From Branchiostoma floridae (lineage: Eukaryota > Chordata > Leptocardii > Amphioxiformes > Branchiostomatidae), in the NCBI RefSeq assembly GCF_000003815.2, contig NC_049980.1, positions 3,528,361-3,592,360 of the forward strand: 64,000 nt of DNA, read 5' to 3'. Positions 34,330-59,644 of this stretch are shown piece by piece (positions within the stretch are counted from its first letter, which is position 1; each line of letters begins with the position of its first letter). The position numbers were made by a program, and so were the translations under genes. The notes under the pieces are model-generated. The model worked only from the letters and a program-made list of their open reading frames with translations. It was not told where the DNA came from and did no database searches.

Positions 34330-37300
34330 TCACTTTGACCAACACTGAAAACGATTGAAGCTCTCCCTTTTCCATCTGGCAAAAGCAACAAGCATGATGG
34401 CAAGGAAAACACCAACGATGCCACCTGTTAGCCCTGAGGAAAAACAAAAGCTTTGATTATGCTTTGGTCACAATTGCGTCGGAGGTACATTGTATATAGC
34501 CCCGGCCAGGCTTTGAAGAAACAGATTTGTCTCCATGGACTGCCGGATACCCTGGATTGAAATTTGTGTTTTTGAAGCAAGAGCGCGAATAAAAAAACGT
34601 TTGGCCAAAAAGAAGTTGCATGGTATGTTAGAAAGGTGTATAATGTTTCATAGAGAGACCGTTCAACAAACAAGCAACTATACGACCCCCTTCCAGCCAT
34701 TTCATCTGTAGTAAGGCAGCGCCGGCTCGCCCTAGCAGGGCATGTGGTTCGTGGTAACGAGCCTGCAGCCGAAAATTGATGCGCGAGCGGATGTCATCCA
34801 TAAACTAGTAATCAAATTAACGTGGCCTTACTAAATTTAGTAAAGTAATGTGATAGAGGGGTGCTATCGCATTTTTCAGTATCAATGTGATAGCACCCCT
34901 CTATCACATTAATTCACTAGTACGAGGGAAAAGATTGTGTCTGTTAGTGGAAAAATGGGGTAGCACCGCTCTATCACATTAATTCACTTGTAAAAGATTA
35001 ACAAGCTTGTCTACATTTGTGTCTGCTAGAGAAAAAAATGTGATTACACCTCTTTATCACATTAACCCTATTCAGACCGGGGGGGGGGGGCTTTTGAGGC
35101 CCGCGCTTACTTTGATGTCCTATAACGCCAGAACGGCTTACGCTAGAGCCACCAAATTTGGTGAGTTTTCCTAAAATATTGTTGGCAACAATTTTAAAAA
35201 GTTTGACAAATTTTCCATTTTTTCGTGTTGCCATGGCAACCGTTTGTTGACAGGCAGTTTTGCCAAAAATCACTATTTTTGGTTCTAACAATGTATTTTT
35301 CACAATTATTTGCTATATTTCTGCTATTTTGTTTCATAAATAAAATCTTATATTATTTAGCATATCTTTCATAATTATGTATGCATAAATTATGCTAATT
35401 TGATGACGTCATCAGCCCAAAATCCAAGATGGCGGACCGTATGGCCAGATCAAGAATAACAAGCTAATTATCCCTTAAAAGTTGTAACCACCTGCTATTT
35501 TTTCATCTAAATGAATGAATCTAGTCTATTTCCATTGCTCTTTGTGGTTATTTGTTGCAAAAAAAGTATTTTTAAAAATTCAAGGTGGTCGATATAATAT
35601 GGCGGAGCCCAACTCGTATCTTAGATGTGCATGACGTCATTTTATGACGTCATTTTGACGTCATTGATGTTGCTATTGGCAACGCAAGTCGTAATAAACA
35701 TTATTATTCTGTTATCTGCACTTGTTGTTACATTTTTGCAGCATAACTTGAAGTTTTCTTTTTTCATGGGTCCGGCCAATATAATCAAATTGATGACGTC
35801 ATAATTACGTCATCTTACGTCAACGTAACGTCAAACGTCACATACACGTCAGATATTATGTCGACATTATGTCCTAAAAATTTGGTGGCCCTTCAGCACG
35901 TCGTTTTAGAGTTATAGGACATCAAAGTGGAGGGCCTCAAAAGCCCCCCCCCCCCCGGTCCAGGGATGACCAAAAAAGCCCGGTCTGAATAGGGTTAAAT
36001 CACTATAGTATATAGACAATTATTGACATAACAGTCTTTACACAGCAAGTTATCACAACTTTTCCAACTATCACGTTTTCGGTCCTAAAATTCAGGGCTA
36101 AATAAATGTGATATACAATTAAGTCTTCAAATTTGTACGTAATCATTTTCATAGCACATTATAAACGGGTCAATTGCCTGGAAAGAAAGCAATCCTGTCA
36201 AATTTCTTCCTGTCTCATGCGTCGATAGCTTACCGATAAGGACCAACCAGTGCCTAGCAGTAAGATCTAAAAATATACAGAGGCAGACACTTTTAAGGTG
36301 CAATAACCAAACTTCACCGAAATTTTTTGCACAAATGTCTAAAGTGGAAGAATCACACAGATGCTTTAACACTATTGTAAACCTATTGTTTTTTGTATGT
36401 CACTTTCAAAATATGCCAGAATATTTAAAAGAATTAAAGAATAATAGATTCAAAATTTCATATTTTGAAAAGAAGTGTCTAACATATTATTTCATTGAGA
36501 ACAATTCAAACTTATTACAAATACTGTTTAAAAATCCTTGCGGTGACTTGGAATGGACTCTATATCGGTGTCAATTTTAGACAAGTGAATAAATAAAAGA
36601 TTAAGGTAACAATTAGGGCACAAAACCGTTTTTTTTCTTATTGGGCCGGTCCGGAAAATTCGATGGACCGGATGTTGGACCTATTAGAAAATAAACAGAT
36701 TATATGATCATGACGTTTTGGGATCTTACCGGTCGAAGAAAATAACAAGAGTGAAGTAGAGTTAATTAAGTTTAAAGTCATTTCTACCAAGGAATTTTGA
36801 TAAAAGTTCCTTGTTTCTACCAACCGCACTTGTAAGGCAGTAAGTCTTACAGAATTTCAAAAGTGGGAGTCAAATACTCCACCAAACATGTTGCTTTGTA
36901 GCGAAATAGACCATTGTTTTTGGTATTATCCATTCACATATTTTCTCATATTGAATCAGGCTCAGGTCCTGGACCTGATCCTCTGGACCTGAACTGGACC
37001 TGGACCTGAATTTTCTGTACCGGTACCCAGCCCTAGTAACAATACAATAGTTCAAACCATATTATGGAAGAATTTAAAAGGACTCACCTTTCCACCAAAT
37101 GAGCTGATGTTGGGACGTACTGGCAGTGGTTCTCTCCCAGCTGAGTGTAAGTGTTGGGAGTTCTGTCTCGGCGGTTGTATTCTTCTCGGAGTCTCGATTC
37201 CCTGCCTTACCCAGGTACAATGTTCGTTGTGGATTGGGAGATGTACACGTTGATAGAGAGACGTTTTGTAGCGACTTGCCCTTCAATTCTCGTGGTGAGT

Positions 37301-37973
37301 CACATCTTAAGGCATTCTCTGCCAGATGTACTACGACCTCCCGTTGAATCCCATCCAGGATAATTGGGACGTCATTCGGATGGAAATTACAGTTGGCCAA
37401 CATGCACGCCCTCACTCGAGGGAGAGGAGCGTTGACACAACCTTCGTCCCGGTGTTCCCACACACATCGCCGCAGACGGGCGAGCCACTGGATCTTACAG
37501 TCACAAAGGAAAGGATTCTGCCATATGCGCAGATAAAAAGACATATGCTGCGGCTTCAGTCCGTCCAGAAAAGTTTTGACTATCGTAGTGATGCGGTTAG
37601 ATTGAAGATAAAGATATTTCAGATAAGGTGGGAAGTCAAGGAAGGCACTGTCGACCTTTGCTATTTCATTGTTGTGCAGTTTCAATGTCATGATTCTTGA
37701 GACATTACGAAGTGAAGGCCACGGAAAGTCTTTCAACCGATTGTCAGACAAATCTAGATGACGGAGCATCGGCATTTCTGGTACATATTTTAAATGTTCA
37801 ATGTCATTTGACTGTAACAGGAGCGCTTCTAGGGTGAGAAATGAGAGTACGTTGTCGGGTATGGTCTTCAATTTCGGAGATTGCCAAGCGCAGTTACCAT
37901 ACGTCCAACAAATGTTGGTGGCGTCGACGCTTGTTGAGATCGGTAGAAGTACAATCGAAAAGACGAGAAACAT
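34330..37973 (-). CDS. LRR receptor A: ectodomain intact, tail truncated by frameshifts
   Basis: Exon 1 is 37973-37088: signal peptide MFLVFSIVLLPISTSVDA, CWTYGNC pair, 4-5 LRRs, then LRRCT beginning NPFLCDCKIQWLARLRRC. Exon 2 starts at 34433 after a TTTTTCCTCAG acceptor and encodes the membrane segment LTGGIVGVFLAIMLVAFARW, then stops at 34330 after 33 residues (329 aa in all). Sequence matching the siblings' tail continues to ~34040 in other frames (SVGQSDAGLG.LLQNRF, SVAQSSDFRRAHLNV, QHVYAEIKSEDIKA), separated by frameshifts and a large deletion. The product would be membrane-anchored without the YAEI tail, or the gene is a pseudogene. The 2.65-kb intron has collected two transposons. An in-frame ATG at 38060 would read through duplicated upstream debris and is not used here. 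Confidence 0.75.
34848..35061. repeat. Short palindromic satellite-like repeats, array 1
   Basis: Four units of the type TGTGATAGCACCCCTCTATCACATTAA spaced 40-75 bp apart, the first two in opposite orientation (GTGATAGAGGGGTGCTATC at 34850, complement at 34893). A second, shorter array is at 45424-45540 in the intron of receptor C. Confidence 0.65.
35066..35994. mobile_element. piggyBac-like MITE (TTAA target)
   Basis: A 929-bp element with inverted ends CCCTATTCAGACCGGG / CCCGGTCTGAATAGGG, each flanked by TTAA (35062-35065, 35995-35998). Poly-G/poly-C runs with GGGCTTTTGAGGCC / GGCCTCAAAAGCCC follow as subterminal inverted repeats. The TTAA site and CCC terminus fit piggyBac. The interior has many TGACGTCA-like palindromes (e.g. 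near 35404 and 35628-35660) and no ORF. It sits in the intron of receptor A. Confidence 0.85.
36614..37035 (-). mobile_element. hAT-like MITE, copy 3, with 8-bp TSD
   Basis: Same family as 804-1232 and 28811-29243, in reverse orientation, flanked by perfect 8-bp GTAACAAT (36606-36613, 37036-37043). It ends ~50 bp from the exon 1 donor of receptor A. Confidence 0.88.
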
Positions 37974-38041
37974 GCTGGCTGATGTCGTTTGCGTTGTCAC
38001 AAAAGAGTGAAATTTCACCTTTTTAAGCCCTATTTCCAGAT

Positions 38042-38206
38042 GGTTGTAACAGGAGGGCATGTAGGGTGAGGAAGGGTGGTATGCTGTCGGGAATGGTGTT
38101 CAATTTTGGCGGTCGCCCCGCGCAGTTACCGTAAAATCCAACAAATGTTGGCGACGTTGACGCTTGTTAAGAACGATAGATGTACAACCGAAAAGATGAG
38201 AAACAT
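38042..38206 (-). pseudogene. Relict first ~55 codons of an LRR receptor, tandem to gene A
   Basis: The minus-strand reading from ATG at 38206 gives MFLIFSVVHLSFLTSVNVANICW, then a frameshift and stop; other frames continue with PPKLN-, TLPD- and LLLQ-like pieces. It is a 233-bp tandem duplication of the start of exon 1 plus 5' UTR. The conserved promoter motif lies 161 bp upstream of this relict ATG, so transcripts of gene A probably carry it as an upstream ORF. Confidence 0.7.
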
Positions 38207-38366
38207 GTCGGCTGATAACGTTTAGATTATAACAAAAGAGTAAAGCACAACGTTTTTAGGCCATGTTTTCAGACGTAGTCTCCAACGTTGTCAAAATTCT
38301 GTGACTGTGCCGTCTGTACCGTCTGGCTTTGAATGCATCTTTTTGCTGATTTAATTGTCTCAGACT

Positions 38367-38376
38367 CTGACGTGAC
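38367..38376 (-). promoter_or_regulatory. Conserved CRE-like upstream motif, gene A
   Basis: CTGACGTGAC (plus-strand reading), embedded in ~60 bp conserved before every array member. It is 394 bp from gene A's own ATG but 161 bp from the relict ATG. Confidence 0.45.
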
Positions 38377-39098
38377 GGAGCGACGTAAACATTTTCCTAC
38401 TGATCTACATGGCTACATGGCCGCCTTTGTAGTGCTTAGTTTCATCGATGGACCGGAACGTTGCAAATCGTTCTTACCGGTATCCTAAGATATTAAAAGA
38501 GTGTCCACCGGCAGATCCCCCCACAAAATATCTGGGTGTGTGCCATGGTCACGACTTGAGTAAAATGAATGCATCTGTAGACGAGCCAATCTCAGATAGG
38601 AGAGTGAAATCGGTTTCTGAGTAATGTCATTTTCCATAGTCAAAAGTAATGGTACAATCTGTTTATCCATGAACAACACGTTGCGATTAGTCTGAGCTTG
38701 GGTTTATGGTGGGATTTTAGGTTGGGTTGGGAAGTTAAACTGGTATGTGCACAACAATGCACAGAAAACATAACCGTTGTGTTTTGTTTTTTCTCCCATA
38801 ATAAAGGGAAACTTTTTTTTTAAATTTGTCTTTCATAAAACAATTATTGCGGAGAGAGCTTAAACAGATAACTCTGTCCAAAATTAACAGCTTGTCTGAA
38901 TTAATTGAAAGACGAAGAAAAACTGTTTTGCTTGACACTAAAGAACAGGCTTCAAGGATCAGGCTACGGAGTCAACATTTTGCAACAATGCAGACTTGTG
39001 CAACTAAATGTGCATTCCATGTGCATGTCAAACTTAAGGTTGGTTAACCCTGCTTTGAGCTGATGACGTCGACCACATCGCCAGTATGCCTACCACTA

Positions 39099-39604
39099 CA
39101 TGCCCGTAGCCGGGGGGGGGGGGGTGTCGGAAGCCCCCCCACCCCACACACACACGAAGGTCCGCTTTTTTTTACGCTCCAAGGTCCGCTTTTTCATGTC
39201 CAAGATTTATTTTTCAAAGGCATGACTGATTTGCGTTTTTCACTGATAGACATTTCATTCAATCTATGCAAGTATCGGCAAAATTTGCCCAAGAAAATGA
39301 AGGAAATAGTTTCAATGGGTCCAGATTTCACAATTTCTCCAGACCTCCATTGCAACGCCTCGCGTCTTTGGTGGTCAGACATGGTGAAAATATGTCAGGG
39401 GAGTCGCCTTCAAAGACTTACGCCGAAAGCCTTGTATACATATTTTTATAGAAATTCCATTAAACTTGGCCATCAAATTTTGTCCGTCAAAATGCAGGAA
39501 ATAGTGTTTCAGAGGGTCAAGATTTCAAAAGGCAGTTCGATGGTCCGACAAGCACTATATAAAAAGACCCCCCCCCCCCAACCGAAATCCTGGCTACGGG
39601 CATG
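39099..39604. mobile_element. 506-bp MITE with CACTA duplication
   Basis: Inverted ends CATGCCCGTAGCC / GGCTACGGGCATG with G/C runs next to them, flanked by CACTA on both sides (39094-39098, 39605-39609). A 5-bp duplication alone does not decide the superfamily. It lies between receptors A and B. Confidence 0.7.
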
Positions 39605-39958: not shown

Positions 39959-41984
39959 TTATATTCTTGTGGTCTCTGTGGTAGCTGCTTTGATGTCCTC
40001 GTCTTTGATTTCCGCGTAGGCGTGCTGAAGTGGGCAGTTCACTGCCTGATCGTCGCCGTTCAACGAAGAGCTTTCTACGTTGAGATGTTCGCGGCGGATG
40101 TCACTGCTCTGAGCAACATTGCATATGTGTGGAACGTCCATAGTGGTAAGTGTTTTTAACGGGAAGGCGTCGACGTCGAGCACATTTTTCGGCACTGGCC
40201 TTTGTTTACGTTTGCATCGAATGTTTAGTGAAAACCGACTTGGGCCTTTCTTCTCCTCAATTGCAAAACGATTTTGTTGCAGATGACCTAGACGGGCATC
40301 ACTTTGGTCAACACTGACAACATTTGAAGCTCTCATTTTCGTCACCGTTTGTAACGGCAAAGCAGCTACTGTTTTTCTTGAAACAGCGTGTTCTTTATGT
40401 TTGAACTGACTGGCAAATGAAGACCAGCTTGCGTCGTCTTTACTTTGTCTTGAGCAGCCTTCTTGAAGATCTTCTTCGATGGCAGAATCACGCTTTTCGA
40501 CGCTTGCTGCATTCTGAAGACGCCTGTCGGTCACCGTTGGGAAGGGTGGAGCGGCGGCCATGTTATTGATGCATGCCTGTCGTCGTTTTCTGCAATGGCT
40601 GATCCATTTGGCAAAGGCGACACATAAGAATGCAAGAAACCCACCGATGATGCCACCTGTCACCACTGAGGAAGTGCAGAATCACACCTTGGATTGTGGT
40701 TTTGTCACAATTGCGCCGGTGCCCGTCGGAGATTTAGCTCGGGCCTGTCTCTGAAGCCACAAATCGATCTTACATCTCGATCTTTTCTCGGTCTATTTGA
40801 CGCAGGGTACTGGGTTTATTTTTACTCCGACTTTGAAAGAAATCTAGTACCCGGCAATTGAAAGGGTCTTCGGAGGAATTCAAGACTACAATGTTCGTCC
40901 TTCTTTTAGGCTTCAATTTTTGGTAAATTTGACAAGACAAACTTGATTCCATCATAACTAAGTTAACTTAGAATTGCAACACTGCCATGTCTGATTAACT
41001 AATACGTAACAAAGGTTACAATAGTTCAAATCATGTGGCATTCAAAGGGACATACCCCCAAAATTGAAAGGACTCACCTTTCCACCAAATGAGCTGAGAT
41101 TGGGAAGTACTGACAGTTGTTCTCTCCCAGCTGACCGTAAATGTTGGGAGCTCTGCCTCGGCGGTTGCACTAATCTCGGCGGTTGCATTCTTCTCGGAGT
41201 CTCGGTTCCCTGCCTTACCCGGGTACGTCGTTTGTTGTGGATTGGGAGATGTGCATGTTGATAGAGAGACGTTTCGTAGCAACTTGCCCTTCAATTCTCG
41301 TGGTGATTCACATCGTACGGTAGTCTCTGCTTGATGTATTACAATTCTAGTATCCCGTTGAATCCTATCCAGGATAACTGGAACGTCATTCGGATGGAAA
41401 TTACAGTTGGCCAACATGCACGCCCTCACTCGAGGGAGAGGAGCGTTGACACAACCTTCGTCCCGGTGTTCCCACACACATCGCCGCAGACGGGCGAGCC
41501 ACTGGATCTTACAGTCGCAGAGGAAAGGATTCTGATATATACGAAGATAAAAAGTCCCCTGTTGGCTCTTCAGTCCGTCCAGGAAAGTTTCGGGTATTGT
41601 GGTAATGCGGTTAGATTGAAGATACAGATATTGCAGGTGTGGTGGGAAGTCCACGAAGGCACTGACCTTTGATATTTTATTGTTGTGCAGTTTCAATGTC
41701 ATGATTCTTGAGACATTACTAAGTGATGACCACGGAAATTCTTTCAACCGATTGTCGGACAAATCTAGATGACTGAGCATCGGCATTTCTGGTATATACT
41801 TCAAATGTTCAATGTCATTTGATTGTAACAGGAGCCATCCTAGAGTGCGAAATGATGTTACGTTGTCTGGTATGGTCCTCAATTTTGGCGATGTTCCCGC
41901 GCAGTTACCGTAAGTCCAGCAAATGTTGGCGGCGTTGACGCTTGCTAAGAACGATAGAAGCGCGATCGAAAAGGGGACAAACAT
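39959..41984 (-). CDS. LRR receptor B with YAEI cytoplasmic tail
   Basis: Exon 1 (41984-41078) and exon 2 (40665-39959) joined by a 412-bp GT-AG intron, 537 aa. An in-frame TAA just upstream fixes the start at MFVPFSIALLSFLASVNA (signal peptide). Next are CWTYGNC, LRRs such as MLSHLDLSDNRLKEFP and HLQYLYLQSNRITTIP, and LRRCT from NPFLCDCKIQWLARLRRC with at least six more cysteines, then a Ser/Thr-rich stalk. Exon 2 gives the membrane segment GGIIGGFLAFLCVAFAKWI, a basic stop-transfer (RKRRQ), tail repeats (KTVAALPLQTVTKMRA..SVDQSDA, PVPKNVLDVDAFPLKTL) and the end HAYAEIKDEDIKAATTE. A cell-surface receptor is the natural reading; ligand and pathway are unknown. Confidence 0.85.
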
Positions 41985-42779: not shown

Positions 42780-43060
42780 TTCACTTGTATACATTTAAGG
42801 GCAAATGGCCTACAGCAATATATAGTTTATATTCTTGCTACAGGAGCAGCAAGGAAACTCGCTGTCCGACTAATGCCAATAGCCGCCAAAAGGGCCACCA
42901 AACAATATCTTTGATGTGGTGTGTACGTCTGGTAAAGGTCGCCATTATGCATTGGCAGCGACGGCGGGTAACTTCATAGACGGGCGGTCTATTTGTTGGT
43001 TGCTCTAATGTCATTTCTTTTATTTCCGCGTACACGTGTTGAAATTGACTGAATGTTTTA
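42780..43060 (-). pseudogene. Relict 3' end of a D-type LRR receptor
   Basis: Minus-strand sequence retains CAACACGTGTACGCGGAAATAAAAG (the HVYAEIK codons, ~43020-43045) followed by GACATTAGAGCAACC and a diverged 3' flank, parallel to 48170-48420 at the end of gene D. No tail upstream of it and no ectodomain exon remain. A lost array member once lay between B and C. Confidence 0.65.
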
Positions 43061-43968: not shown

Positions 43969-46900
43969 TTACTTTATATCCTCGTCCTTGATTTCCGCGT
44001 AGACGTGCTGAAGTGGGCAGTTTACTGCCTGATCGTCGCCGTTCACCGAAGAGCTTTCTACGTTGAGATGTTCGCGGCGGATGTCACTGCTCTGAACAAC
44101 ATTGCATATGTGTGGAACGTCCATGGTGGTAAGTGTTTTTAACGGGAAGGCGTCGAGCACATTTTTCGGCAATGGCCTTTGTTTACGTTTGCATCGAATG
44201 TTAAGTGAAAAACGACTTGGGCCTTTCTTCTCCTGAAAACGATTTTGTTGCAGATGGCCTTGACCGGCATCACTTTGGTCAACACTGACAACGATTGAAG
44301 CTCTCATTTTTCTGACCTTTTGTAACGGCAAAGCAGCTACTGTTTTTCTTGAAACAGTGTGTTCTTTTTGTTTCAACTGACTGGCAAATGAAGACCAGCT
44401 TGCGTCGTCTTTACTTTGTCTTGAGCAGCCTTCTAGAAGATCTTCTTCGATGGCAGAATCACGCTTTTCGACGCTTGCTGCATTCTGAAGACGCCTGTCG
44501 GTCACCGTTGGGAAGGGATGAGCTGCGGCCATGTTGTTAATGCATGCCTGTCGTCGTTTTCTGCAATGGCTGATCCATTTGGCAGAGGCGACACATAAGA
44601 ATGCAAGAAAACTACTGATGATGCCACCTGTTAACCCTGCGGAAGGACAAAATGTCACATTGGATTATTCACATGGTGCCTGTCAGCGGTGTAGCCCTGG
44701 CCATGCTCTAAAACCACAAATTCGTCCGCATGGATTGCCGGATACCACGGGGTACCTCTCAGTGTTTTCATTGGTAGATCACAGTGTCTATTTGTCGCCG
44801 GGTGCTGGGTTCCTTTTAGCTCAGAGTTAAACAGAAATCTGGGGCCGGGCAGGGTCCAAATTTAGTCCGGTATCCACAGGGCGTCCGAAGGGGCCTCGCA
44901 GGGGTGAAGTCCACAAAACAGCCCGTGGACTCCCGGCAGGGACTCTTTTTCCAAATAGAATGCAATCTATGTCATGCCCTGAACATAGTAACGCTCGATA
45001 CAGGTGTTGCTGACCGGACCGTAGTTAGCGGTATCCCACTGGCACCTACTTTTTTCGATCACAGGCTTCCGAATAATTGGAACGCGCTTCGCGTGCACCG
45101 CGCGTAGCGCTACCAAACTTCAACTACGGGATTTGGACGTTAATATATATCTTGTATTCTTTTGTTGGAAGGCACCAAATTTTCTCAACTTCGGAAGCAT
45201 TCGGCATTGAAATGTTTTTTTGGTCAATTATTTCCCTACCCTGAAAAAAAGTTTGCGGGTTATTTCGGCTATAATGATTTCCGAATTTGTTGAAAATATG
45301 CATGATATGGAATAAGATACTTCAATAATGGTAACAGCATTATTTGCGACTTTATACGCAACTATTTTGTAACACTTTGTAAGTGGTCAATTAAGGGAAA
45401 ATATTCTGTCTATTAGTGGAAAATGTGATAGCACCCCTCTATCACATTAATTCATCGGTAAAAGATTAACAAGCTGGTCTACAATTGTGTCTACTAGAGA
45501 AAAATGTGATAACAGCCCTATATCACATTAATCCACTAGTATATAGACACTTATTGAAATAACAGTTCGAAAACAACCTATCATAACTTTTCGAACTATC
45601 ACCGTGACGTTTACTGCCCTGAAATACTATTTGATTCATAATCAAGTATTTAGAAATGGTAACAGCATTTTATCTTTAGTTACCATTTTCTACGTAATCA
45701 TTTTTGTAACACATTGTAAATGGGTCAATAGGCTAGAAAGAAAGCAATCCTTTCAAGATTTGGTTGGGTCTCATGCATCGATAACTTACCATGAAGGACC
45801 TACCAGTGCCAAGCAGTGAAATCTGAAAATGGACAGAGGCAGACAATATAGGGCTTACTTTTTCGGGGCAATAACCGAACTCCATTAAATGTTACAAATA
45901 TTTGTACAAATTGTCCAAAGTGGAAGAATCATATAGAAGTTTCAACATTTTATTGTAATTAGTATAGTTTTGTTGTACGTCACTTCCAAAATGTTCCTAA
46001 AATAATTTAATTCTTTTTGGAAAACATTGAAATATTGTGGCTTATGTATCTTATTCAGAACAATTCAAAATTACAAATGCTGTTTAAAAACCCTTGCGGT
46101 GACTTGATTCGACTGTTTATAAGTGTCAATTTAAAACAATTCGGGAAAAGTGTTACAATAGTTCAAACCATCATGTATTCAATGGGCCATGTCCGAAGGA
46201 TTTAAAATGACTCACCTTTCCACCAAATGAGCTGAGGTTGGTGAGAGTTGACGGTGGATTTCTCCCAGCTGATCGTATGTGTTGGGAGTTCTGCCTCGGG
46301 TGTTGCACTCTTCTCGAACTCTTGGGTCCCCACCTTACCCGGGTACAAGGTCTGTTGTGGATTGGGAGATGTGCATGTCGGTAGAAAGACGGTTTGTAGC
46401 GACTTGCCCTTCAATTCTCGTGGTGAGTCACATCTTAAGGCATTCTCTGCCTGATGTATTACGGTCTCCCGTTGAATCCCATCCAGGACGACTGGAACAT
46501 TATTTGGATGGAAATTGCAGTGGGCCAACATACAAGTTCTTACTCGTGCAATAGGAGCGTTGACACAACCTTCGATAAGGTGTTCCCACACACATCGCCG
46601 CAAACGGGCGATCCACTGGATCTTACCGTCGCAAAAGAAAGGATTCTTCCATATGCGCAAATGTAGAATTCTCTGCTGGGGCTTTAGTCCGTCCAAAAAC
46701 GTTTCGGGTATCGTAGTGATGCGGTTAGACTGAAGATACAGATGTGTCAGGCGTTGTGGGAAGTCGACCGAGTCACTGATTTTTGATATTTCATTGTTGT
46801 TCAGTTTCAAGAACTTGATTCTTGAGATATTACGAAATGAAGACCACGGAAATTCTTTCAACCGATTGTCAGACAAATCTAGATTACAGAGCATCGGCAT

Positions 46901-47098
46901 TTCTGGTACATATTTCAAGTGCTCAATGTCATTTGATTGTAACAGGAGCCATCCTAGGGTGCGAAATGATGTTACGTTGTCTGGTATGGTCTTCAATTTT
47001 GGCGATTTCCCCGCGCAGTTACCGTACGTCCAACAAATATTGGCGGCGTTAACGCATATAAGGAACGGTAGAAGTACAATTGAAAAGACGAGAAACAT
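43969..47098 (-). CDS. LRR receptor C with YAEI tail
   Basis: Exon 1 from 47098 (MFLVFSIVLLPFLICVNA; an in-frame ATG at 47149 would add 17 residues) to 46216, exon 2 44636-43969, 516 aa. Layout as in B: CWTYGNC, LRRs (MLCNLDLSDNRLKEFP, RLTHLYLQSNRITTIP), LRRCT starting NPFFCDGKIQWIARLRRC. Here the second LRRCT cysteine is replaced by glycine, so a disulfide usual for this fold is missing, unlike the five siblings. Membrane segment GGIISSFLAFLCVASAKWI. The tail has B-like repeats (KTVAALPLQKVRKMRA, PLPKNVLDAFPLKTLTT) and ends HVYAEIKDEDIK, nine residues short of B. Confidence 0.85.
44960..45240. repeat. Decayed R2-family repeat in intron of receptor C
   Basis: TGTCATGCC, then ACGCTCGATACAGGTGTT, ACCGGACCGTA and GGCACCAAATTTTCTCAACTT match the order of blocks in 32376-32700 at reduced identity. 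Confidence 0.55.
45424..45540. repeat. Short palindromic satellite-like repeats, array 2
   Basis: Two units of AATGTGATAGCACCCCTCTATCACATTAA type with the same AAAGATTAACAAGCT spacer seen in array 1 (34848-35061), both inside introns of array genes. The spacer shows the two introns share ancestry. Confidence 0.6.
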
Positions 47099-48344: not shown

Positions 48345-51300
48345 TCAAAGACGTGTGGTCTTTTTGGTGGCTGTTCTAATGTCCTCATCTTTTATTTCCG
48401 CGTACACGTGTTGAAGTGACGGATCGTCGTTGCTCGTCGAAGAGCCTTGTACGTTGAGAGGATCACGGCGGATGTCACTGCTAAGAGCAACATTGCTTAT
48501 GATTGGAACAGGCATGGCAGTGAGTGTTTGTAACGGCAATGCGTCGAGCACGTTTTTCGGCACAGGTTTTTGTTTACGTTTGCGCCAAACACCGAATGAA
48601 AAGCGGCTTGGGACTTTCACAGGTTCTTGTCGAGGATGGCCTAGAGTTGCATCACTTTGCATTTGGTCAACATTTACCATAGTCGAGACTCTCATGTTTC
48701 TGACAGTTTGTAACGGCAAAGCAGCGACTGTTTTTCTCGTATCAGCCTGCTGTTCGCGTCTGCGCCGAGTGCAGAGTGAAAAGCAGCTTTTGCCCTTCTT
48801 CTTTCCCAAAGGATTTTGTTGCAGATGGCCTAGACCGTCATTACATTGGTCAACACTGACAACAGGTTTTTGTCCACATTTCGGCCGAGCACCGAATGGA
48901 AAACGGCTGGTATCTTGTTGAGGAAGGCTCAGAATTGCATCACTTTGCAATTGGTCAATATTGACCATAGTCGAGGTTCTCATGATCTTGACTGTTTGTA
49001 GAGCTAGAGGAAAAGCAGCCACAGTTTTCTTCGATCCAGCCTGTTGTTTACGTTTGCGCCAATTGTTGAATGAAACGAGACTTAAGCCTTTCGACTTCTC
49101 GGAGGAATCTTTTTGTAGATGTTTTAGAACAGCATTTTCCTGGTCACCACTGGCTTCAATCGAGGTTCCCATGTTCCTGACAGCTTGCAACGGTAAAGTA
49201 GCGACCGTTATTTCTGACCCAGCCTGTTGTGTGTTCCTGCACCGAGTGTCAAGAGAAGGGCGGTTCGTGTCTTCTTCGTTGTGTCTTGAGCAATCCTCTT
49301 GAAGATGTCCCTCGATATTAGAACCACTCCGTTCAACACCTGTTACATACCGAAGACGCCTGTCTGTCACTGCTGGCAATGGCCGGGCAGTGGCCATGTT
49401 ATGAAGCACGACTTGACGTCGTTTTCTGAGTTTTCTCTTACTGACAATCCATTTGATGATGAAACCGACAAATAAGGTAAGCAGGACAGCTCCAAGGATG
49501 CCAACAGTGAGCTCTGTGAAAGGACAGAAAATCACGTTGTATGGATATATACAAATTTATTGTTTGTTGAGATTGTAGAAGGCTCAAGTGTGTTCCAACA
49601 CAGGACGTGTATGAATTTTACTGAACTGCCACTTCTTCTGATTCGAATGACTAAGGGACACGCTAAGCAATCGCTAAGGACACGTTCCCTTGTTACAGAT
49701 ACGTGACATCAACAGTACCGCGCTTCATCTCTGTTAAAATCTTTTATGTGCACGAACCAATGTTGTATACTACAGGTATGGGAGTGAAACATAATATTTT
49801 CCTGACGTATCATCCTTCTTCAGTTAAACTTCAGAAAATCTTCCCCAGGGAAAGAGCAATAAGGAAGTGCTTCCACTGTGACTTGTCCAGCAATTTGAAT
49901 GGTGGATGAACCCCATAACCACATAAACCCTTAAGCAACCTAGACTGTCTGGCACTTAGGAACATTAGCATAATAACTGTCACAAGATTAAACAAGAGTT
50001 CGAACACCTCACAAAATTGTGACCAGAAAGCCCCTGTACTTCCAGAGTAACGTGCCAAAACATACATCACTTCTTTCCTTACATCACAATCTATCTGCCA
50101 CCAAACAAGTATTGTTGAAAAAAAGCTGTGCCTTGGCGTGTAGTAGGGATATCGTCAGGAAAAAGTACCTCGGCGCTTCGCCGGTGCTCATCAATAAACA
50201 TGAGCATCACATCAAAACAACCAGAGGCAACCAGAAAAGCATGTGTATGTTAATTGTATATCATGGGTCCTGGTACTGCGCATTTGCAACTACTAAGTAT
50301 ATAACTGAAAAGTTGGTATTTGGATGCCTAGGACATTAGCCTACATGACTTAAATGTAGTGGTCATACATCACTTCAGAATTATTTATTTTGTTATTTTC
50401 GCCAATTGTATACAAAAATACGTAATATTTGGAGTTCCTAATATTCATGTAACAGTATCTAATGCAAGTCATCTGAGATCTAGTGTTGCTGTCTGGGGCA
50501 TATGCAATCTCTTATTTTGGCATGCAGTCCATTTTTTAATAGGATTTTTCAACCAAAGATATATATATTTCCTAATAAAGGCATTGTTGAATATGGTCAA
50601 TTGGGCAAAATCTACGACAATGGTCTGAGTTGACTTTGCTTGCAATAATTCACTATTTCACTATTGGCCAGAAATCATTTTGTATTTTTCCATTTTAAAT
50701 AGGTTTGTCGCTTCTTACTGGGTAATTATGAATTTTTAAAGCTTCAATATATGACTGGAATAATTATGCAAATGTCAACTTCCTGAGCTAACGTTTTTTT
50801 CCCTCTGGTCCATATAAATAGGGGCATTCTTAATGGTGATAATTTTGGAACAGTCAATGTTTGCATGGAGAGGGATAAGTAATTCAGTAAGCCGTATTTG
50901 CTTGCAAATATTGCACATTATTTGATAGATTGAAAATCCATTCGTCTGACCTGTATATGTAATCTTATAACGAAGATATACCGCCATGTTAAAGAAAATT
51001 AGAACGACTCACCTTTCCAAATGAGCGGAGGTATGGGAGTGTTGACAGTGGTTATTTCTCCACTGGACGTAACAGGCGTCGCTTTCTTCTCAAATTCTTC
51101 TGTCCCCACATAACCCAGAGATGATGTTTGCTGCGAATTTCCAGAATGATTCTGTGATGTACATGTGGATTCTAGGTTGACGCTTTGTAAAGACTCCCCC
51201 TTTAGTTCTAGTGGTAAGTCACATATTAAGTCATTCTTTGCCACATGGTTTACAATGAGATTATCTTGTAGAAGGCTGTCGAGGATTACTGCAACACCAT

Positions 51301-51895
51301 TCGGATGAAAATTGCAGTTGGCCAACATGCACACCCACACTCGAGCTATAGGCGCGTTGACACAGCCTTCGTTCCGGTGTTCCCACACACATCGCCGCAA
51401 ACGGGCAAGCCACTGGATCTTACAGTCGCAAAGGAAAGGATTCTGATATATGCTCAGGTAGAAGGTCTTCAGCTGTTTCTTTAGTCCGTCCAGAAACGTT
51501 TCAGGTATCGTGGCAATGCGGTTAGATTGAAGATACACATATTTCAGGCGTGGTGGGAAGTCAACGAAGGCACTGACCTTTGATATTTCATTGTTTTGCA
51601 GTTTCAATATCCTGATTCTTGAGATATTGTGAAGTGATGGCCAAGGGAACTCTCTCAGACGATTGTAAGACAAATCTAGATGACAGAGCTCCGGCATTTT
51701 TGGTATATATTTCAATTCTTCAATGACATTCCATGATAACAGGAGCGCTTTTAGAGTGGAAAACGATGGTACGTCGTCTGGTATGGTCTTCAATTTCGGC
51801 GATTGCCCCACACAGTTACCGTACGTCCAACAAATGTTGGTGGCGATGACGCTTGTTATGAACTGTACAAGCAGGATAGCGATGACGACAAACAT
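48345..51895 (-). CDS. LRR receptor D, longest tail with five repeat units
   Basis: Exon 1 from 51895 (MFVVIAILLVQFITSVIA; upstream in-frame ATG at 51928) to 51013, exon 2 49513-48345, 683 aa. Ectodomain: CWTYGNCVGQSPKLKTIPDD, LRRs (ELCHLDLSYNRLREFP, RLKYVYLQSNRIATIP), LRRCT NPFLCDCKIQWLARLRRC. The membrane segment VGILGAVLLTLFVGFIIKW and KRKLRKRRQ lead into a 388-residue exon. About five diverged ~55-residue units recur there, built on K-T-V-A-A-x-P-L-Q-T-V-x-x-M-R-x-S, V-D-Q-x-Q-S-D-A-x-L and R-F-x-F-G/S-x-x-x-K-R-K-Q. It ends HVYAEIKDEDIRTATKKTTRL. The tail is basic and probably disordered; tyrosine is almost absent except in YAEI. Confidence 0.85.
49514..51012. other. Intron of receptor D
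   Basis: 1.5 kb, no exon or clear transposon. Only its first ~200 bases (gene orientation 3' end, 49520-49740) are shared with the introns of E and F (TTGTAGAAGGCT.AAG.GT, GATACGTGACATCAACA). Confidence 0.5.
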
Positions 51896-52060
51896 GTCGG
51901 GTAAAGTCATTGAATTATGTTGCCACAAAAGAGTGAAGGCTTACCTTTACTTAGCACTATTCTCAGACGTGGTCCCCAAAAACGTTAAACTCTGCAACTG
52001 TGCCGTATGCTCCGTCTCTTTGCAAATGTATACTTTTGCATGACTTCACCGTTTCAAATT

Positions 52061-52070
52061 CTAACGTGAC
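52061..52070 (-). promoter_or_regulatory. Conserved upstream motif, gene D
   Basis: CTAACGTGAC, 166 bp from the MFVV start; one base different from the A-C version. Confidence 0.45.
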
Positions 52071-53059
52071 AAAGCGACGTAAATGCTTTTCTATGATTAG
52101 TTCTAGAAAAACCTCTGCAGTGTCCAGATGTGTCGTTGGACCCAGTTATCAAATGCAGCTAAGCTTGGTTTCGGTGTTCTTGGATTATGGGGTACGCTAT
52201 ATATGAACATAGCCCCAAATAAATGACTGTGCCTGTTGACTTGAGTAAATATATACGTATTGCAGACGTATTAAAAAGTCATAAAAGTGTCACTCAAGCT
52301 ATTTTCAAGAAGGAGAACAAAATTGAGTCACGCCACTCCATAGTCAAAAGAATTGGTAGTTTTTTTAATGCATAAACAAGATTATTGTGATTAGTCTAAG
52401 GCTTGGCTTGGTAAGCACACAACATGGCACAGAAAAAATATTACCAAATCAGACGCGTTTTGTTTTATTCCTCCTATGAATTGTAGCCATTCTTTATTGG
52501 TTGTCATCCAGATAAAAAAATGTGTTGCCTGTGAGTATTTCTGTATTTGTTCATTGAAATCAAACGGTGTAAAGGAAAGACGTACCTACACCATGCACAG
52601 ATGCATATTGTAGAATGCTGTTGATCGTGAGATACAAGGAATAGCTGCTTATAATGTGCTGTACCTGGGCCTACATGGAAACACCACTGTATTACTCTTA
52701 CCCGACTGTCTCATTTTGATTTTAAATACAGGAATGCAGGCTTCCATGTTATTACAGCAATACAGTCACAAACCATCACACTTTTGCTCTTGTGCCTTAA
52801 AGGTTTATGTTTGCGTTTTTTCTCACATTAGTTTTAACCATATGAGAACACCTTTCAAACTTTCCTATCATAGCATATCAAAGAATGTGTAGACATTAGA
52901 AATTTCTTCAATGATTGTAAAAACCTCCAATGATTGCAAGAAACATTATCCCATACTACAACTCCTGTATTAGTTAGATAAACCTTAAGTCAAGGTATAG
53001 AACTGTAGTTATGTAGAAGCCATACTTTGTACCTTGTACAATTGTTGTGCAATAAAGTT

Positions 53060-53099
53060 ATATATCTATCGAACTATGGAAATAGTTCGATAGATATAT
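53060..53099. repeat. Perfect 18-bp-arm hairpin
   Basis: ATATATCTATCGAACTAT, a 4-base loop GGAA, then its exact reverse complement. The duplicate locus at ~56930 has lost the symmetry. An AATAAA precedes it at 53051. Confidence 0.8.
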
Positions 53100-53534
53100 C
53101 GTATCGTTTGTAAATGAAATTCTACATTCAGTAATTCTTCGCCTTTGTTGACGCGCATAGCAGAAATAGGACCTAAACAAAAACGTATTGGCTAAACTTA
53201 TTGCCACTAAATGTTGTAAGATCTTTAAAGTCAGTTCTAAAGTGCAATAAAATATTTGAAATCTACCTGTGCACTGAGCACTTTAAGGAACGTCCTACTT
53301 AACCGATCTTATTAATTGGCAACCATTTTCTTATGCCATCATCATCATGTCGCCTGCAGTTTTACCATACGGCCTTCACGTTTCCTGGCAACAGATTATT
53401 TTGAAATTGTGGTTTGACAGCATCACTCGGCCATATTATATTCACACTAGGACTAAAGAACACAAACTTTGATTGGGGAGGAAGTTTGTGCTTGCGGTAA
53501 AGGTCGCCATTGCACAAGCGACAGCATTGTATCC

Positions 53535-53930
53535 TCATAGACGGGTGTTCTCCTTGGCGGTTCCTCTAATGTCCTCATCTTTTATTTCCGCGTACACGTG
53601 TTGAAGTGACTGATTATCGTTGTTCATCGAAGAGCCTCGTACGTTGAGATGTTGACGACGGGTTTCCCTGCCCTGAGCAACACTGCGAATGCTTGGAACA
53701 GGCATGGCGGCGAGTGTTTGTAACGGCAAAGCCGAAGCGACTGTTCTCCTCGGATTAGCCTGCTGTTCGCGTTTGCGCCGAGTACAGAGTGAAAAGCAGC
53801 GTTTTCCGATACTGACGAACCATTTGATGATGAAAACGACAAATAAGGTAATCAGAACACCGCCAAGGATGCCAACAGTGATCTCTGTGAAAAGACAGAA
53901 AATCACGTTGTATGGTGTTATATATATATA

Positions 53931-53961
<31 letters not shown>

Positions 53962-55763
53962 CTGTTGGTTATTGACATTGTAGAAGGCTAAAGCGTACAT
54001 GTGTTCCAACACAAGAACGTGTATAAATTTCAATGAGCCGCTACTCTTTCTGATTTAAATGACCGGCAATCGCTAAGGACACGTTCCCTTGTTACAGATA
54101 CGTGACATCAACAGTACCTCGCTTCGTCTCTGATAGAAGCCTCTGTGTGTACGTACATGAAAGCATAACAACCGTATTTCACTACATACTCCAGTTAAAT
54201 CTTCAAATCGGTTCATCTCTGTCATTTTGTCACTCCTACATCACTTAAGAATGATCTATTTGGGTGTTTTCGCCATTTTTTAGACAAGAATACATATTTT
54301 GAGTTCCTATGGCACTGTGCATGTATTTAATCCAAGTGATCTGAAATGCGATGTGTTGCTGCCTTACACATATGCAATCCATTATTCATATCTTTGGCAT
54401 ACAACCAAAAATATATTTCTTGGAACATTCTATTGTTGAATAGACTGGGGTGACTTTGCAATCATTCCCTATTGGGCAGAAATCATTTTGTACTTTTCCA
54501 TTTTACATGAGTTTGCCACCGCTAGAAGAGTCCGTTCTTGCTGGCCGGGGGAGTATGCTGTTTAAAGCTTTAACATGGGACCTGGGACAGGGTAATTTTG
54601 CAAATATCGACTTTCTGAGGGGATGTTTGTTTTATATTTGTCCTTTTAAATGGGGTCCCACTGGATGAGTCCATTCAGCCATTGGGGCATTTCTAATGGG
54701 GAAATAAAATTAAAAAATTTTTTTTGCAAGGAAAAGGGTGCTTAGTGCTATATGCGCCGTATCTGCTCATGAATATTGCATTTATATCTTGAAACACTAA
54801 AAAGCCCAATCATCTATCTTACCCAGGTCATCTTATGAGGAAGAGGTACCGCCATGTCAAAAGAAATTAAGACGTCTCACCTTTCCAAATGAGCGGAGGT
54901 ATGGGAGTGCTGACAGTGGTTGTTTCTCCACTGGACGTAACAGGCGTGGCTTCCTTCTCAAATTCTTCTGTCCCCACATTACCCAGAGATGTTGTTCGCT
55001 GCGGATTTCCAGAATGATTCTGTGATGTACTTGTGGATTCTAGCCCAACGCTTCGTAAAGACTCCCCCTTTAGTTTTTGTGGTAAGTCACATATCAAGTC
55101 GTTCGTTTCCAGATGTTTTACAATACGATTTTCTTGTAGAAGGCCGTCGAGGATTACAGCAACCCTATTCGGATGGAAATTGCAGTTGGCCAACATGCAC
55201 GTTCTCACTTGAGTGAGAGGAGCGTTGACACAGCCTTCGTCCCGGTGTTCCCACACACATCGCCGCAGACGAGCGAGCCACTGGATCTTACAGTCACAAA
55301 GGAAAGGGTTCTGATATATACGCAGATAGAAGGTCCTCAGCTGTTTCTTCAGTCCGTCCAGAAACGTGTCGGGTATCGTGGTAATGCGGTTAGATTGAAG
55401 ATACAGATATTTCAGGCGTGGTGGGAAGTCCACGAAGGCACTGACCTTCGATATTTCATTATTTTGCAGTTTCAATATCCTGATTCTTGAGATATTGTAA
55501 AGTGATGGCCAAGGGAACTCTCTCAGACGATTGTAGGACAAATCTAAATGACAGAGTTCCGGCATTTCTGGTATATATTTCAACTCTTCAATGACATTCC
55601 ATTGTAACAGGAGCGCTTTTAGAGTGGAAAATGGTGGTATGTTGTCTGGAATGGTCTTCAATTTCGGCGATTGCCCCACACAGTTACCGTACGTCCAACA
55701 AATGTTGGTGGCGTTGACGCTTATTTGGAACTGTACAAGCACGGCAGCGATGACGACAAACAT
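53535..55763 (-). CDS. LRR receptor E, crossover hybrid with short YAEI tail
   Basis: Exon 1 from 55763 (MFVVIAAVLVQFQISVNA; upstream ATG at 55796) to 54881, exon 2 53884-53535, 410 aa. The N-terminal half (GQSPKLKTIPDN, ELCHLDLSYNRLREFP) follows gene D. From about FPPRLKYLYLQSNRITTIPD onward, including LRRCT, stalk (TSTSQNHSGNPQRTTS), intron and exon 2, it is nearly identical to gene F. The membrane segment VGILGGVLITLFVVFIIKW runs into a short tail, GKRCFSLCTRRKREQQANPRRTV.., then ALPLQTLAAMPVPSI and HVYAEIKDEDIRGTAKENTRL. Compared with D the tail has lost about four repeat units. Confidence 0.85.
53920..53961. repeat. (TA)n(GT)n microsatellite at the exon 2 acceptor of E
   Basis: It starts ~35 bp from the acceptor. 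The same place in gene F (57787-57870) is a long (TA)n, showing fast change after duplication. Confidence 0.9.
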
Positions 55764-55928
55764 GTCGGGTAAAGTCATTGAATTATGTTGCCACAAAAGA
55801 GTGAAGGCTTACCTTTACTTAGCACTATTCTCAGACGTGGTCTCCAAAAACGTTAAACTCTGCAACTGTGCCGTATGCTCCGTCTCTTTGCAAATGTATA
55901 TTTTTGCATGACTTCACCGTTTCAAATT

Positions 55929-55938
55929 CTAACGTGAC
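55929..55938 (-). promoter_or_regulatory. Conserved upstream motif, gene E
   Basis: CTAACGTGAC, 166 bp from the MFVV start, in sequence nearly identical to that upstream of D. Confidence 0.45.
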
Positions 55939-57455
55939 AATGCGACGTAAATGCTTTTCTATGATTAGTTCTAGAACCATCTCTGTAGTGTCCAGATGTG
56001 TCGTTGGACCCAGTTATCAAATGCAGCTAAGCTTGGTTTCGGTATTCTTGGATTATGGGGTACGCTATATATGAACATAGCCCCAAATAAATGACTGTGC
56101 CTGTTGACTTGAGTAAATATATACGTATTGCAGACGTATTAAAACGTCATAAAAGTGTCACTCAAGCTAATTTCAAGAAGGAGAACAAAATTGAGTCACG
56201 CCACTCCATAGTCAAAAGAATTGGTAGTTTTTTTAATGCATAAACAAGATTATTGTGATTAGTCTAAGGCTTGGCTTGGTAAGCACACAACATGGCACAG
56301 AAAAATATTACCAAATCAGATGTGTTTTGTTTTATTCCTCCTATGGATTGTAGCCATTCTTTATTGTTTGTCATCCAGATAAAAAAAATGTGTTGCCTGT
56401 GAGTATTTCTCTATTTGTTCATTGAAATCAAACGGTGTAAAGGAAAGACGTACCTACACAATGCACAGATGCATATTGCAGAATACATGTTGATCTCGAG
56501 ATACAAGGAATAGCTGCTTATAATGTGCTGTACATGGGCCTACATGGAAAAACCACTGCATTACCCGACTGTCTCATTTTGATCTTAAATACAGGAATGC
56601 AGACTTCCATGTTATTACAGCAATACACTCACAAACCATCACACTTTTGCTCTTGTGCCTTCAGGTTTATGTTTGCGTCTTTTTTCTTACATTTGTTTTA
56701 ACAATATGAGAACACCTTTCAAACTTTCCTATCATAGCATATCAAAGAATGTGTAGACATTAGAAATTTCTTCAATGATTGTAAAAACTTCCAATGATTG
56801 TAAGAAACATTGTCCCCCACTACAACACCTGCATTAGTTAGATAAACCTTAAGTTAAGCTATAGAATTGTACTTATGTGGATGCCATACTTTGTGCCTTG
56901 TACAATTGTTGTGCAATAAAGTTATATATTTATCATACTACGGAAATAGAATATCACACATATTGCTCCATACGTATCGTTTGTAAATGAAATTCTAATT
57001 TCAGTAACCCTTCGCTTTTGTTGACACGCATAGCAGGAATTCGGCCTAAACCAAAACGTATTGACTAAACTTACTGCCACTAAATGTTGTAAGATCTTTA
57101 AAGTCAGTTCTAAAGTGCAATTAAATGTTTGAATTCTACCTGTGCACTGAGCAACTGAAGGCATGTCCTACATAACCAATCTTATTAATTGGAAACCATT
57201 GTCTTATGCCATCATCATCATGTCGCCTGCAGTTTTACCATACGGCCTTCACGTTTCCTGGCAACAGATTATTTTGAAATTGTGGTTTGAAAGTATCACT
57301 CGGCCATATCATATTCACGCTAGAACCAAAGAGTAACAGCTTTGATTGGGGAGGACGTTTTTTGCTTGCGGTAAAGGTTGCCATTGCAAAAGCGACAGCA
57401 TTGTATCCTCATAGACGGGTGTTCTCCTTGGCGGTCCCTCTAGTGTCCTCATCTT

Positions 57456-57782
57456 TTATTTCCGCGTACACGTGTTGAAGTGACTGACTATATCGTTGTT
57501 CATCGAAGAGCCTTGTACGTTGAGATGTTGACGACGGGTTTCCCTGCCCTGAGCAACACTGCGAATGCTTGGAACAGGCATGGCGGCGAGTGTTTGTAAC
57601 GGCAAAGCCGAAGCGACTGTTTTCCTCGGATTAGCCTGCTGTTCGCGTTTGCGCTGAATACAGAGTGAAAAGCAGCGTTTTCCGATACTGACGATCCATT
57701 TGATGATGAAAACGACAAATAAGGTAGTCAGGACACCGCCAAGGATGCCAACAGAGATCTCTGTGAAAAGACAAGAAAATGG

Positions 57783-57840
<58 letters not shown>

Positions 57841-59644
57841 GTTATATATGTTATATATTATATATATATGTTGGTAATTGACATTGTAGAAGGCTAAAGT
57901 GTACATGTGTTCCAACACAAGGACGTGTATGAATTTCACTGAGCCGCTACTTCTTCGGATTAGAATGACTGGCAATCGCTAAGGACACGGTCCCTTGCTA
58001 CAGATACGTGACATCAACAATACTGCGCTTCGTCTCCTATAGAAGCCTTTGTGTGTACGTAAATAAAAGCATGCCGTCGTATTTCACTACATACTCCAGT
58101 TAAATCTACAAATCGGTTCATCTCTGTCATTTGTCACTCCTACATCACTTAAGAATGATCTATTTGGGTGTTTTCGCCATTTTTTAGACAAGAATACATA
58201 TTTTGAGTTCCTATGGCACTGTGCATGTATTTAATCCAAGTGATCTGAAATGCGATGTGTTGCTACCTTAGGCATATGCAATCCATTATTCATATCTTTG
58301 GCATACAACCAAAAATATATTTCTTGGAACATTCTATTGTTGAAAAGACTGGGGTGACTTTGCAATCATTCCCTATTGGGCAGAAATCATTTTGTACTTT
58401 TCCATTTTACATGAGTTTGCCACCGCTAGAAGAGTCCGTTCTTGCTGGCCGGGGGAGTATGCTGTTTAAAGCTTTAACATGGGACCTGGGACAGGGTAAT
58501 TTTGCAAATATCGACTTTCTGAGGGGATGTTTGTTTTATTTTTGTCCTTTTAAATGGGGTCCCACTGGATGAGTCCATTCAGCCATTGGGGCATTTCAAG
58601 GTTTTTGCAAGGAAAGGGGTGCTTAGTGCTATATGCGCCGTATCTGCTCATGAATATTGCATTTATATCTTGAAACACTAAAAAGCCTAATCATCTATCT
58701 TATCCAGGTCATCTTATGAGGAAGAGGTACCGCCATGTCAAAAGAAATCAAGACGTCTCACCTTTCCAAATGAGCGGAGGTATGGGAGTGCTGACAGTGG
58801 TTGTTTCTCCACTGGACGTAACAGGCGTGGCTTCCTTCTCAAATTCTTCTGTCCCCACATTACCCAGAGATGTTGTTCGCTGCGGATTTCCAGAATGATT
58901 CTGTGATGTACTTGTGGATTCTAGCCCAACGCTTCGTAAAGACTCCCCCTTTAGTTTTTGTGGTAAGTCACATATCAAGTCGTTCGTTTCCAGATGCTTT
59001 ACAATACGATTTTCTTGTAGAAGGCCGTCGAGGATTACAGCAACCCCATTCGGATGGAAATTGCAGTTGGCCAACATGCACATTCTCACTTGAGTGAGAG
59101 GAGCGTTGACGCAACCTTCGTCCCGGTGTTCCCACACACATCGCCGCAGACGGGCGAGCCACTGGATCTTACAGTCGCAAAGGAAAGGATTCTGCCATAT
59201 ACGCAGATAGAAGGTCCTCAGCTGTTTCTTCAGTCCGTCCAGAAACGTGTCGGGTATCGTGGTAATGCGGTTAGATTGAAGATACAGATATTTCAGGCGT
59301 GGTGGGAAGTCAACGAAGGCACTGACCTTTGATATTTCATTGTTTTGCAGTTTCAATGTCCTGATTTTTGAGATATTGTGAAGTGATGGCCAAGGGAATT
59401 CTCCTAAATGATTGTCGGACAAATCCAAATGACAGAGTTTCGACATTTTTGGTATATATTTCAACTCCTTAAAGTCATTCTGCTGTAACAGGAGCCCTCC
59501 TAGAGCGGGAAATGATGGCAAGTTGTCTGGTATGGTTTTCAATTTCGGCGATGTTCCCGCGCAGTTACCGTACGTCCAACAAATGTTGGCGGCGTTGACG
59601 CTTATTAGGAACTGTACAAGCACGATAGCGATGACGACAAACAT
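57456..59644 (-). CDS. LRR receptor F, tail frameshifted before the YAEI motif
   Basis: Exon 1 from 59644 (MFVVIAIVLVQFLISVNA; upstream ATG at 59677) to 58762, exon 2 57760-57456, 395 aa. The first LRRs differ from E (LKTIPDNLPSFPALGGLLLQ, LCHLDLSDNHLGEFP), but LRRCT and stalk are almost the same. In exon 2 the sequence AACGATATAGTCAGTCAC replaces AACGATAATCAGTCAC of E, a 2-base gain. The frame shifts after NNDI and ends SHFNTCTRK, so YAEIKDEDI is present in the DNA (another frame) but not in the protein. All else is intact, so this is either a live receptor without the motif or an early pseudogene. Confidence 0.82.
57787..57870. repeat. (TA)n microsatellite at the exon 2 acceptor of F
   Basis: Over 50 bp of TA followed by TTATGTTATATATG-type sequence, ~25 bp from the acceptor. 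Confidence 0.95.

Follow-up and report, generated by a model that had tools for sequence, protein, structure and literature searches.

The window considered here, a 64,000-nucleotide stretch of the Branchiostoma floridae genome (C2:3528361-3592360 in the genome assembly), holds six head-to-tail two-exon genes, G1 to G6, of a small leucine-rich repeat (LRR) receptor-like family whose tails are marked by a conserved tyrosine motif, Y-[A/E]-E-I-K-D-E-D-[I/V]. The family is read as a set of receptors in which one tail tyrosine provides a docking site for the SH2 domain of Src-family kinases, a reading given an even chance of being correct. In the proposed mechanism, a short solenoid of LRRs, together with its cysteine-rich LRRCT, would detect a ligand; upon clustering, a Src-family kinase would phosphorylate the tail tyrosine, and the phosphotyrosine would then dock the SH2 domain of a Src-family kinase in the manner of FAK pY397 (YAEI). 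The docked receptor would concentrate kinase at the membrane, and its signal may be activating or inhibitory; the phosphorylation, the SH2 partner and the immune role are all predictions. If this reading is true, an invertebrate chordate has a receptor family, of LRR rather than Ig type, in which one docking site for Src SH2 is the central element, which would bear on the origin of tyrosine-based immune receptors.

Conservation of the tail motif

The Y-[E/A]-E-I core of FAK-type Src SH2 docking sites is intact and in frame in seven of the fifteen family members found in the genome (G2 to G5 in the window, and G11, G12 and a gene on C9 outside it). Outside the window, the motif takes the forms DNTYEEIKDEDV, QHVYEEIKDEDI and EHNYEEIKDEDV in paralogs, and the tail of G10 has a looser YEDI, the looser paralog sequence being PHVYEDINDGNI. 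Because divergent relatives end in YEEIKDED[IV], the kept element is taken to be Y-[A/E]-E-I-K-D-E-D-[I/V]. All seven intact tails have Glu at +2, Ile at +3 and the subsequent K-D-E-D, while +1 is Glu in three of them and position -2 is occupied by His in six tails and by Asn in the seventh; the constant residues (A/E-E-I-K-D-E-D) follow the tyrosine and do not precede it. Apart from the motif, exon 2 encodes no tyrosine in G2, G3 and G5 and one in G4.

Such a short tyrosine element could alternatively serve endocytic sorting, whereby an AP-2-type adaptor would bind the unphosphorylated YxxI and the receptor would clear its ligand from the surface. The sequence Y-x-x-I matches the general YxxPhi form, a signal that requires only the tyrosine and a bulky residue, and in the window genes the motif lies near the tail end. 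However, the invariant Glu at +2 and the K-D-E-D that follows are features for which YxxPhi has no requirement, and in G11 and G12 the motif sits mid-tail with further tyrosines and a proline-rich stretch behind it; a sorting function is regarded as improbable.

Between the window subgroups the motif is under strong constraint, more than chance would produce. Across the 13-codon end, seven synonymous and no non-synonymous changes separate G3 from G4, and likewise G3 from G5, against three synonymous and 15 non-synonymous (G3 v. G4) and four and 19 (G3 v. G5) in the 33 codons upstream, with Fisher p values of 0.00025 and 0.00016, respectively, for pairs that are non-independent. For G2 v. G4, the end has four synonymous and two non-synonymous changes against three and 15 upstream (p = 0.038); the bare counts for the end are four and two in G2 v. 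G5, and three and one in G2 v. G3. In the tail block just before the motif, the non-synonymous rate (dN) exceeds the synonymous rate (dS) in six of ten pairs. Mean identity among five lineages reaches 0.71 in the part that starts with the tyrosine and 0.52 in the juxtamembrane module; between these two modules, pairwise identity is 0.19-0.35 (six pairs from the four lineages outside the window). The tail is moreover enlarged in the window clade: the internal repeats of G4 reach a best score of 72 against a null maximum of 39 (200 shuffles), those of G2 are marginal (39 against 37), and the repeat units are similar to KRRQ...NMA..PPL..V, the juxtamembrane module, which is present in eight of nine compared tails, G5 being the one without it.

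Candidate partners of the tail tyrosine

Owing to A/E-E-I at +1 to +3, together with His or Asn at -2, the tail may be read as a Src-family SH2 docking site. The peptide pYEEI is named the best Src SH2 ligand (PMC7337045), FAK and PYK2 have (S/T)(D/E)DYAEI in common, with YAEI as the conserved autophosphorylation core, and FAK Tyr-397 is described as recruiting SH2 proteins that include Src-family kinases (PMC1570463); a FAK biosensor, similarly, pairs ETDDYAEIIDEE with the Src SH2 domain (PMC12494029). An amphioxus Lck is also reported to exist and to bind an LRR receptor (PMC8211107). As only one tyrosine is available, a single-SH2 partner would be more natural than a tandem-SH2 SHP, which is reported to bind dual phosphorylated immunoreceptor tyrosine-based inhibitory motifs (ITIMs) (PMC7641642). 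In both FAK/PYK2 and the window genes an acidic stretch follows YAEI (YAEIIDEE v. YAEIKDED); however, FAK is a cytosolic kinase and no receptor, and its motif is preceded by (S/T)(D/E)D, that of the window genes by QH[V/A]. The likeness is probably convergent, and kinship of the genes with FAK was rejected, given that only the short motif is in common.

The closest published motif found is HDYSEV, also with His at -2, in BbLcLRR of Branchiostoma belcheri (GenBank MW390887). This protein, the nearest published receptor encountered, is compared here by its published description, which reports it together with BbLck from the gut of stimulated lancelets (PMC8211107). The first-pass annotation, made from the window sequence alone, had matched the family to no named group; this needs correction, in that YAEI is the core of FAK/PYK2 (PMC1570463) and the H-x-Y-x-E-V of BbLcLRR is already in print (PMC8211107). 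According to that description, BbLcLRR is, as is predicted for the window family, an LRR receptor that crosses the membrane once, with caps at the N- and C-terminal sides of the LRRs and a Cys-rich domain call before the LRRCT; it associates with a Src-family kinase, and its HDYSEV resembles H-x-Y-[A/E]-E-I. It differs in its 699 aa, in its three mapped tail tyrosines (in DDYATV, HDYSEV and HDYDDP) and in a SMART WSC domain between LRRs and LRRCT (PMC8211107). No Pfam WSC match up to E 1 was obtained in the six window LRR exons, HMMER filters being known to drop most weak matches.

BbLcLRR is reported to be inhibitory in Jurkat cells, and the window family could likewise consist of inhibitory ITIM-like receptors whose single tyrosine, once phosphorylated, attracts an SH2 phosphatase, with the SHIP type the likeliest because one site suffices. 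BbLcLRR is described as phosphorylated by Lck and as binding SHIP1 and, to a lesser degree, SHP1/2, with HDYSEV counted as an ITIM by its authors despite the His at -2 (PMC8211107). Furthermore, SHP1 is said to be favoured by alanine at pY+1, as in YAEI (PMC8631942), and one of the tyrosines of PD-1, which dimerises, is reported to be enough (PMC7078208). On the other hand, the ITIM consensus S/I/V/LxYxxI/V/L places S, I, V or L at -2, where the intact tails have His or Asn in all seven cases, and a charged +1 residue, such as the Glu of three tails, is reported as less efficient for SHP1 (PMC8631942). The +3 position agrees with the consensus (I/V/L) in 7/7 tails. A phosphatase-recruiting role is, on the whole, rather doubtful, and the reservation about an ITIM assignment voiced in the first-pass annotation was fair. 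The switch motif ITSM (TxYxxV/I) finds no counterpart, there being no Thr at -2 in any of the seven intact tails. Vertebrate ITIM receptors such as PD-1, BTLA and SIRPalpha resemble the window family in being single-pass with a conserved YxxI/L/V in the tail; their ectodomains are of the Ig type. The four intact window tails (G2 to G5) gave no Pfam family at cut-off, including the TIR domain of Toll-like receptors; sub-cut-off matches (THEG4 twice, DUF2805 once, none for G5) were judged to be chance.

Several points weigh against docking of a Src-family kinase. Eight of the fifteen genes (G1, G6, G7, G8, G9, G10, G13 and the C8 gene) are without an intact in-frame Y[A/E]EI, by which the motif would be dispensable for some members. 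The reported preference of the Src SH2 domain for pYEEI over two unrelated peptides amounts to at most two orders of magnitude (PMC7337045), and a short motif says little about the partner that it binds. BbLcLRR, with its similar motif, is reported as inhibitory, with SHIP1 (PMC8211107); in turn, the question is raised for BbLcLRR whether HxYxE[I/V] serves phosphatase or kinase recruitment. Natural controls are available within the family: some paralogs retain the site, some have it behind a frameshift and others have it deleted.

Extent and history of the family

A whole-genome search (513,431,437 bases) was conducted with the LRR exon of G2, and of the 1748 candidates from a first look, 130 received a score and were listed. 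Among these, 16 LRR exons matched at E 1.1e-68 or better and the next match stood at 6.5e-16; by this search, the family is sharply separated from ordinary LRR genes. Thirteen of the 16 exons lie within 108 kb (C2:3565449-3673289), two are on C8 in one open frame and one is on C9, such that the 16 ectodomains correspond to 15 genes, six of them in the window. Among the open-literature papers listed, no description of the family was found, subscription papers and genome annotations being outside the search.

The tails outside the window are diverse. In G11 and G12, five more tyrosines follow the motif in each, with PPPIPKR and PPPVPSR near the ends. G7 (C2:3618063-3621180, minus strand) has an open frame and a repeat tail from which the YAEI tyrosine is deleted in frame (QHVETNDEDI), and is a natural version without the tyrosine site. 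The C8 gene (C8:21368003-21369899, minus strand) encodes two consecutive LRR ectodomains, arranged head-to-tail, within a single open frame of 632 aa. The tails of G8, G9, G13 and C8 are candidates from an acceptor-plus-hydrophobic-segment heuristic only: those of G8, G9 and C8 are short and arginine-rich without the motif (G8 and G9 with other tyrosines, C8 with none), and that of G13 differs in having NYIGMV and PPPLPPRK. The G10 tail was paired with its LRR exon solely on account of their proximity, the start positions of G10 and G11 are provisional, and the script met no usual donor for G11.

In the ectodomain tree, G12 and the C9 gene are set apart by a deep split (99/99) from G11, G10 and the window clade; the midpoint root is for drawing only, and five of 13 inner branches are well supported. 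Because carriers sit on both sides of this split, the YxEI motif is probably ancestral, and the simplest reading is that it was lost or replaced several times. Taken as a whole, the genes are best explained as a lineage-expanded family of putative single-pass type I receptors. It may be proposed tentatively, as a possibility well short of an even chance, that this lancelet LRR receptor class acts as a membrane FAK-like scaffold, in which an LRR ectodomain clustered by its ligand would offer one ancestral pY[A/E]EI site to Src-family kinases. Inside a single gene cluster, exchange of tails (silent by loss of the tyrosine, basic, or proline-rich and multi-tyrosine) would then diversify the output and leave the ectodomain unchanged in kind.

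The first-pass annotation had further called the family paired-receptor-like, which holds in part. Related, clustered ectodomains do occur with the motif (G2 to G5, G11, G12) and without it (G7, by deletion; G8 and G9, by their candidate tails); however, paired receptors would have a short-tailed partner with a basic residue in its membrane segment, and no charged residue was found inside the hydrophobic segment of G1 or of the candidate G8, G9 and C8 tails.

Structure and decay of the six-gene array

The six genes were rebuilt from the DNA and are confirmed as gene models, with splicing and membrane topology predicted; they agree with the first-pass annotation, which had described a tandem array of receptor-like genes that have a tyrosine motif and a phase 1 two-exon split in common. 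All lie on the minus strand, in right-to-left order from G6 to G1, and the interval 34330-59644 is bounded exactly by the stop codon of G1 and the ATG of G6. The introns are GT-AG, in phase 1 and 412-2654 bp long; exon 1 (883-907 nt) ends in AAAG|GTGAG and exon 2 is preceded by a CAG acceptor in all six. Exon 1 encodes a signal peptide, a two-cysteine N-cap, four to five LRRs, an LRRCT and a stalk, and exon 2 a membrane segment, a basic stop-transfer and the tail. The hydropathy profile shows two hydrophobic stretches, at the N-terminus and at the start of exon 2, and Pfam places LRRs above cut-off in 6/6 LRR exons. A stop codon occurs 4-15 codons past the exon 1 donor in every gene (37074-37087, 41031-41077, 46202-46215, 50999-51012, 54867-54880 and 58748-58761 for G1 to G6), by which intron retention would yield a secreted ectodomain.

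In G1, exon 1 (37088-37973; signal peptide, LRRs, LRRCT and stalk) encodes 295 aa, and exon 2 (34330-34433) is broken, with the membrane segment and a truncated tail in 34 aa. G2 has all ten conserved ectodomain cysteines in the 302 aa of exon 1 (41078-41984), and its exon 2 (39959-40665; 235 aa) encodes the membrane segment and a single-tyrosine tail, QHAYAEIKDEDI. Exon 1 comprises 294 aa in G3 (46216-47098), G4 (51013-51895), G5 (54881-55763) and G6 (58762-59644), the 5' third of the last being mixed between two subfamilies. Their second exons encode, besides the membrane segment, a single-tyrosine tail in G3 (43969-44636; 222 aa; QHVYAEIKDEDI), a tail with internal repeats in G4 (48345-49513; 389 aa; QHVYAEIKDEDI), a short single-tyrosine tail in G5 (53535-53884; 116 aa; QHVYAEIKDEDI) and a tail with a frameshift before YAEI in G6 (57456-57760). 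The array plainly originated by tandem duplication, as 50959-53903 and 54827-57780 match at 92.7% and 53963-56519 and 57869-60392 at 90.3%.

As the first-pass annotation had stated, four of the six proteins (G2 to G5) end in an in-frame YAEI. The G1 tail is cut and frameshifted, with an out-of-frame YAEI remnant near 34145-34080, and in G6 the frameshift just before the motif leaves YAEI out of frame at 57483-57412. Two minus-strand relics between genes, both overlooked in the first-pass annotation, are a disrupted LRR exon N-terminus at 38045-38273 and a tail end at 42970-43045 that reads FQHVYAEIK before it is disrupted; further copies therefore once existed. The array might be decaying without present function, its recent duplicates heading to pseudogenes. 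The two frameshifted tails, the two relics, the loss of an LRRCT cysteine in G3 (CDC to CDG) and of the last LRRCT cysteine in G5 and G6, and the excess of dN over dS before the motif would all fit. Nevertheless, of 45 pair-by-region comparisons within exon 1, 42 have a dN smaller than dS (the exceptions being the stalk of G4/G5 and of G4/G6, and G5/G6 without change), and the motif itself is strongly constrained between subgroups; general decay is considered highly unlikely.

Ectodomain evolution and related proteins

Eight cysteine columns, and with them the two LRRNT cysteines, are conserved in 16/16 ectodomains, and two more columns in 13 and 12. Positive selection on the ectodomain was considered and rejected, dN being mostly below dS; the same holds for the 5' half of G5/G6, which is divergent (0.09 v. 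0.15). An arms race at the concave face was likewise rejected: with concave LRR positions assigned by eye, 12 of 20 concave and 32 of 60 other surface sites are variable (p = 0.80, all six genes), and enrichment is also non-significant in the G5/G6, G4-6 and G1-3 subsets. G5 and G6, a recent pair, differ in the first 300 bp, where G6 combines sites of both subgroups, and are nearly identical in the 3' half of exon 1, in the stalk and, as far as the frameshift, in the tail. For G2/G3, dS is 0.08 in the mid-tail, 0.40 in the LRR parts and 0.64 in the last 18 codons. These patterns are consistent with conversion or recombination acting to homogenise a large part of the tail and to shuffle the halves of the LRR region.

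Among other amphioxus LRR proteins, the VLR-like Bf66946 described in PMC4731796 is, like the window family, small, with few repeats and caps. Its LRRNT is described with two disulfides, as against two conserved cysteines in the window family; an LRRCT insertion is reported in none of nine VLR-like candidates (PMC4731796), and the LRRCT of the window family has eight cysteine columns. FrLRR, also an LRR protein of amphioxus, is reported to have no cytoplasmic tail (PMC10199209). Searches of solved structures returned generic LRR proteins among the best 60 of 270 and the best 60 of 357 sequences, and the G4 tail end had no solved-structure relative at E 10.

Neighbouring features

Next to the array, a minus-strand LRR gene at 60546-62327, apparently has two exons. 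Pfam finds an LRRNT and numerous LRRs in it, the second exon looks LRRCT-like by eye, the N-terminus has repeated units of TCPEG type, and no membrane segment was seen. Beyond it, 63029-63472 on the plus strand resembles what we take to be the start of a paraoxonase-type protein, Pfam giving no match. The remainder of the window contains a stretch of N at about 4715-5065, ion channel exons at 3209-3559 and 7736-8212 (minus strand; Pfam Ion_trans), a reverse transcriptase open frame at 10969-12228 (plus strand; Pfam RVT_1), probably of a LINE-type element, and perilipin exons at 22171-22461 and 22837-23193 (plus strand; Pfam).

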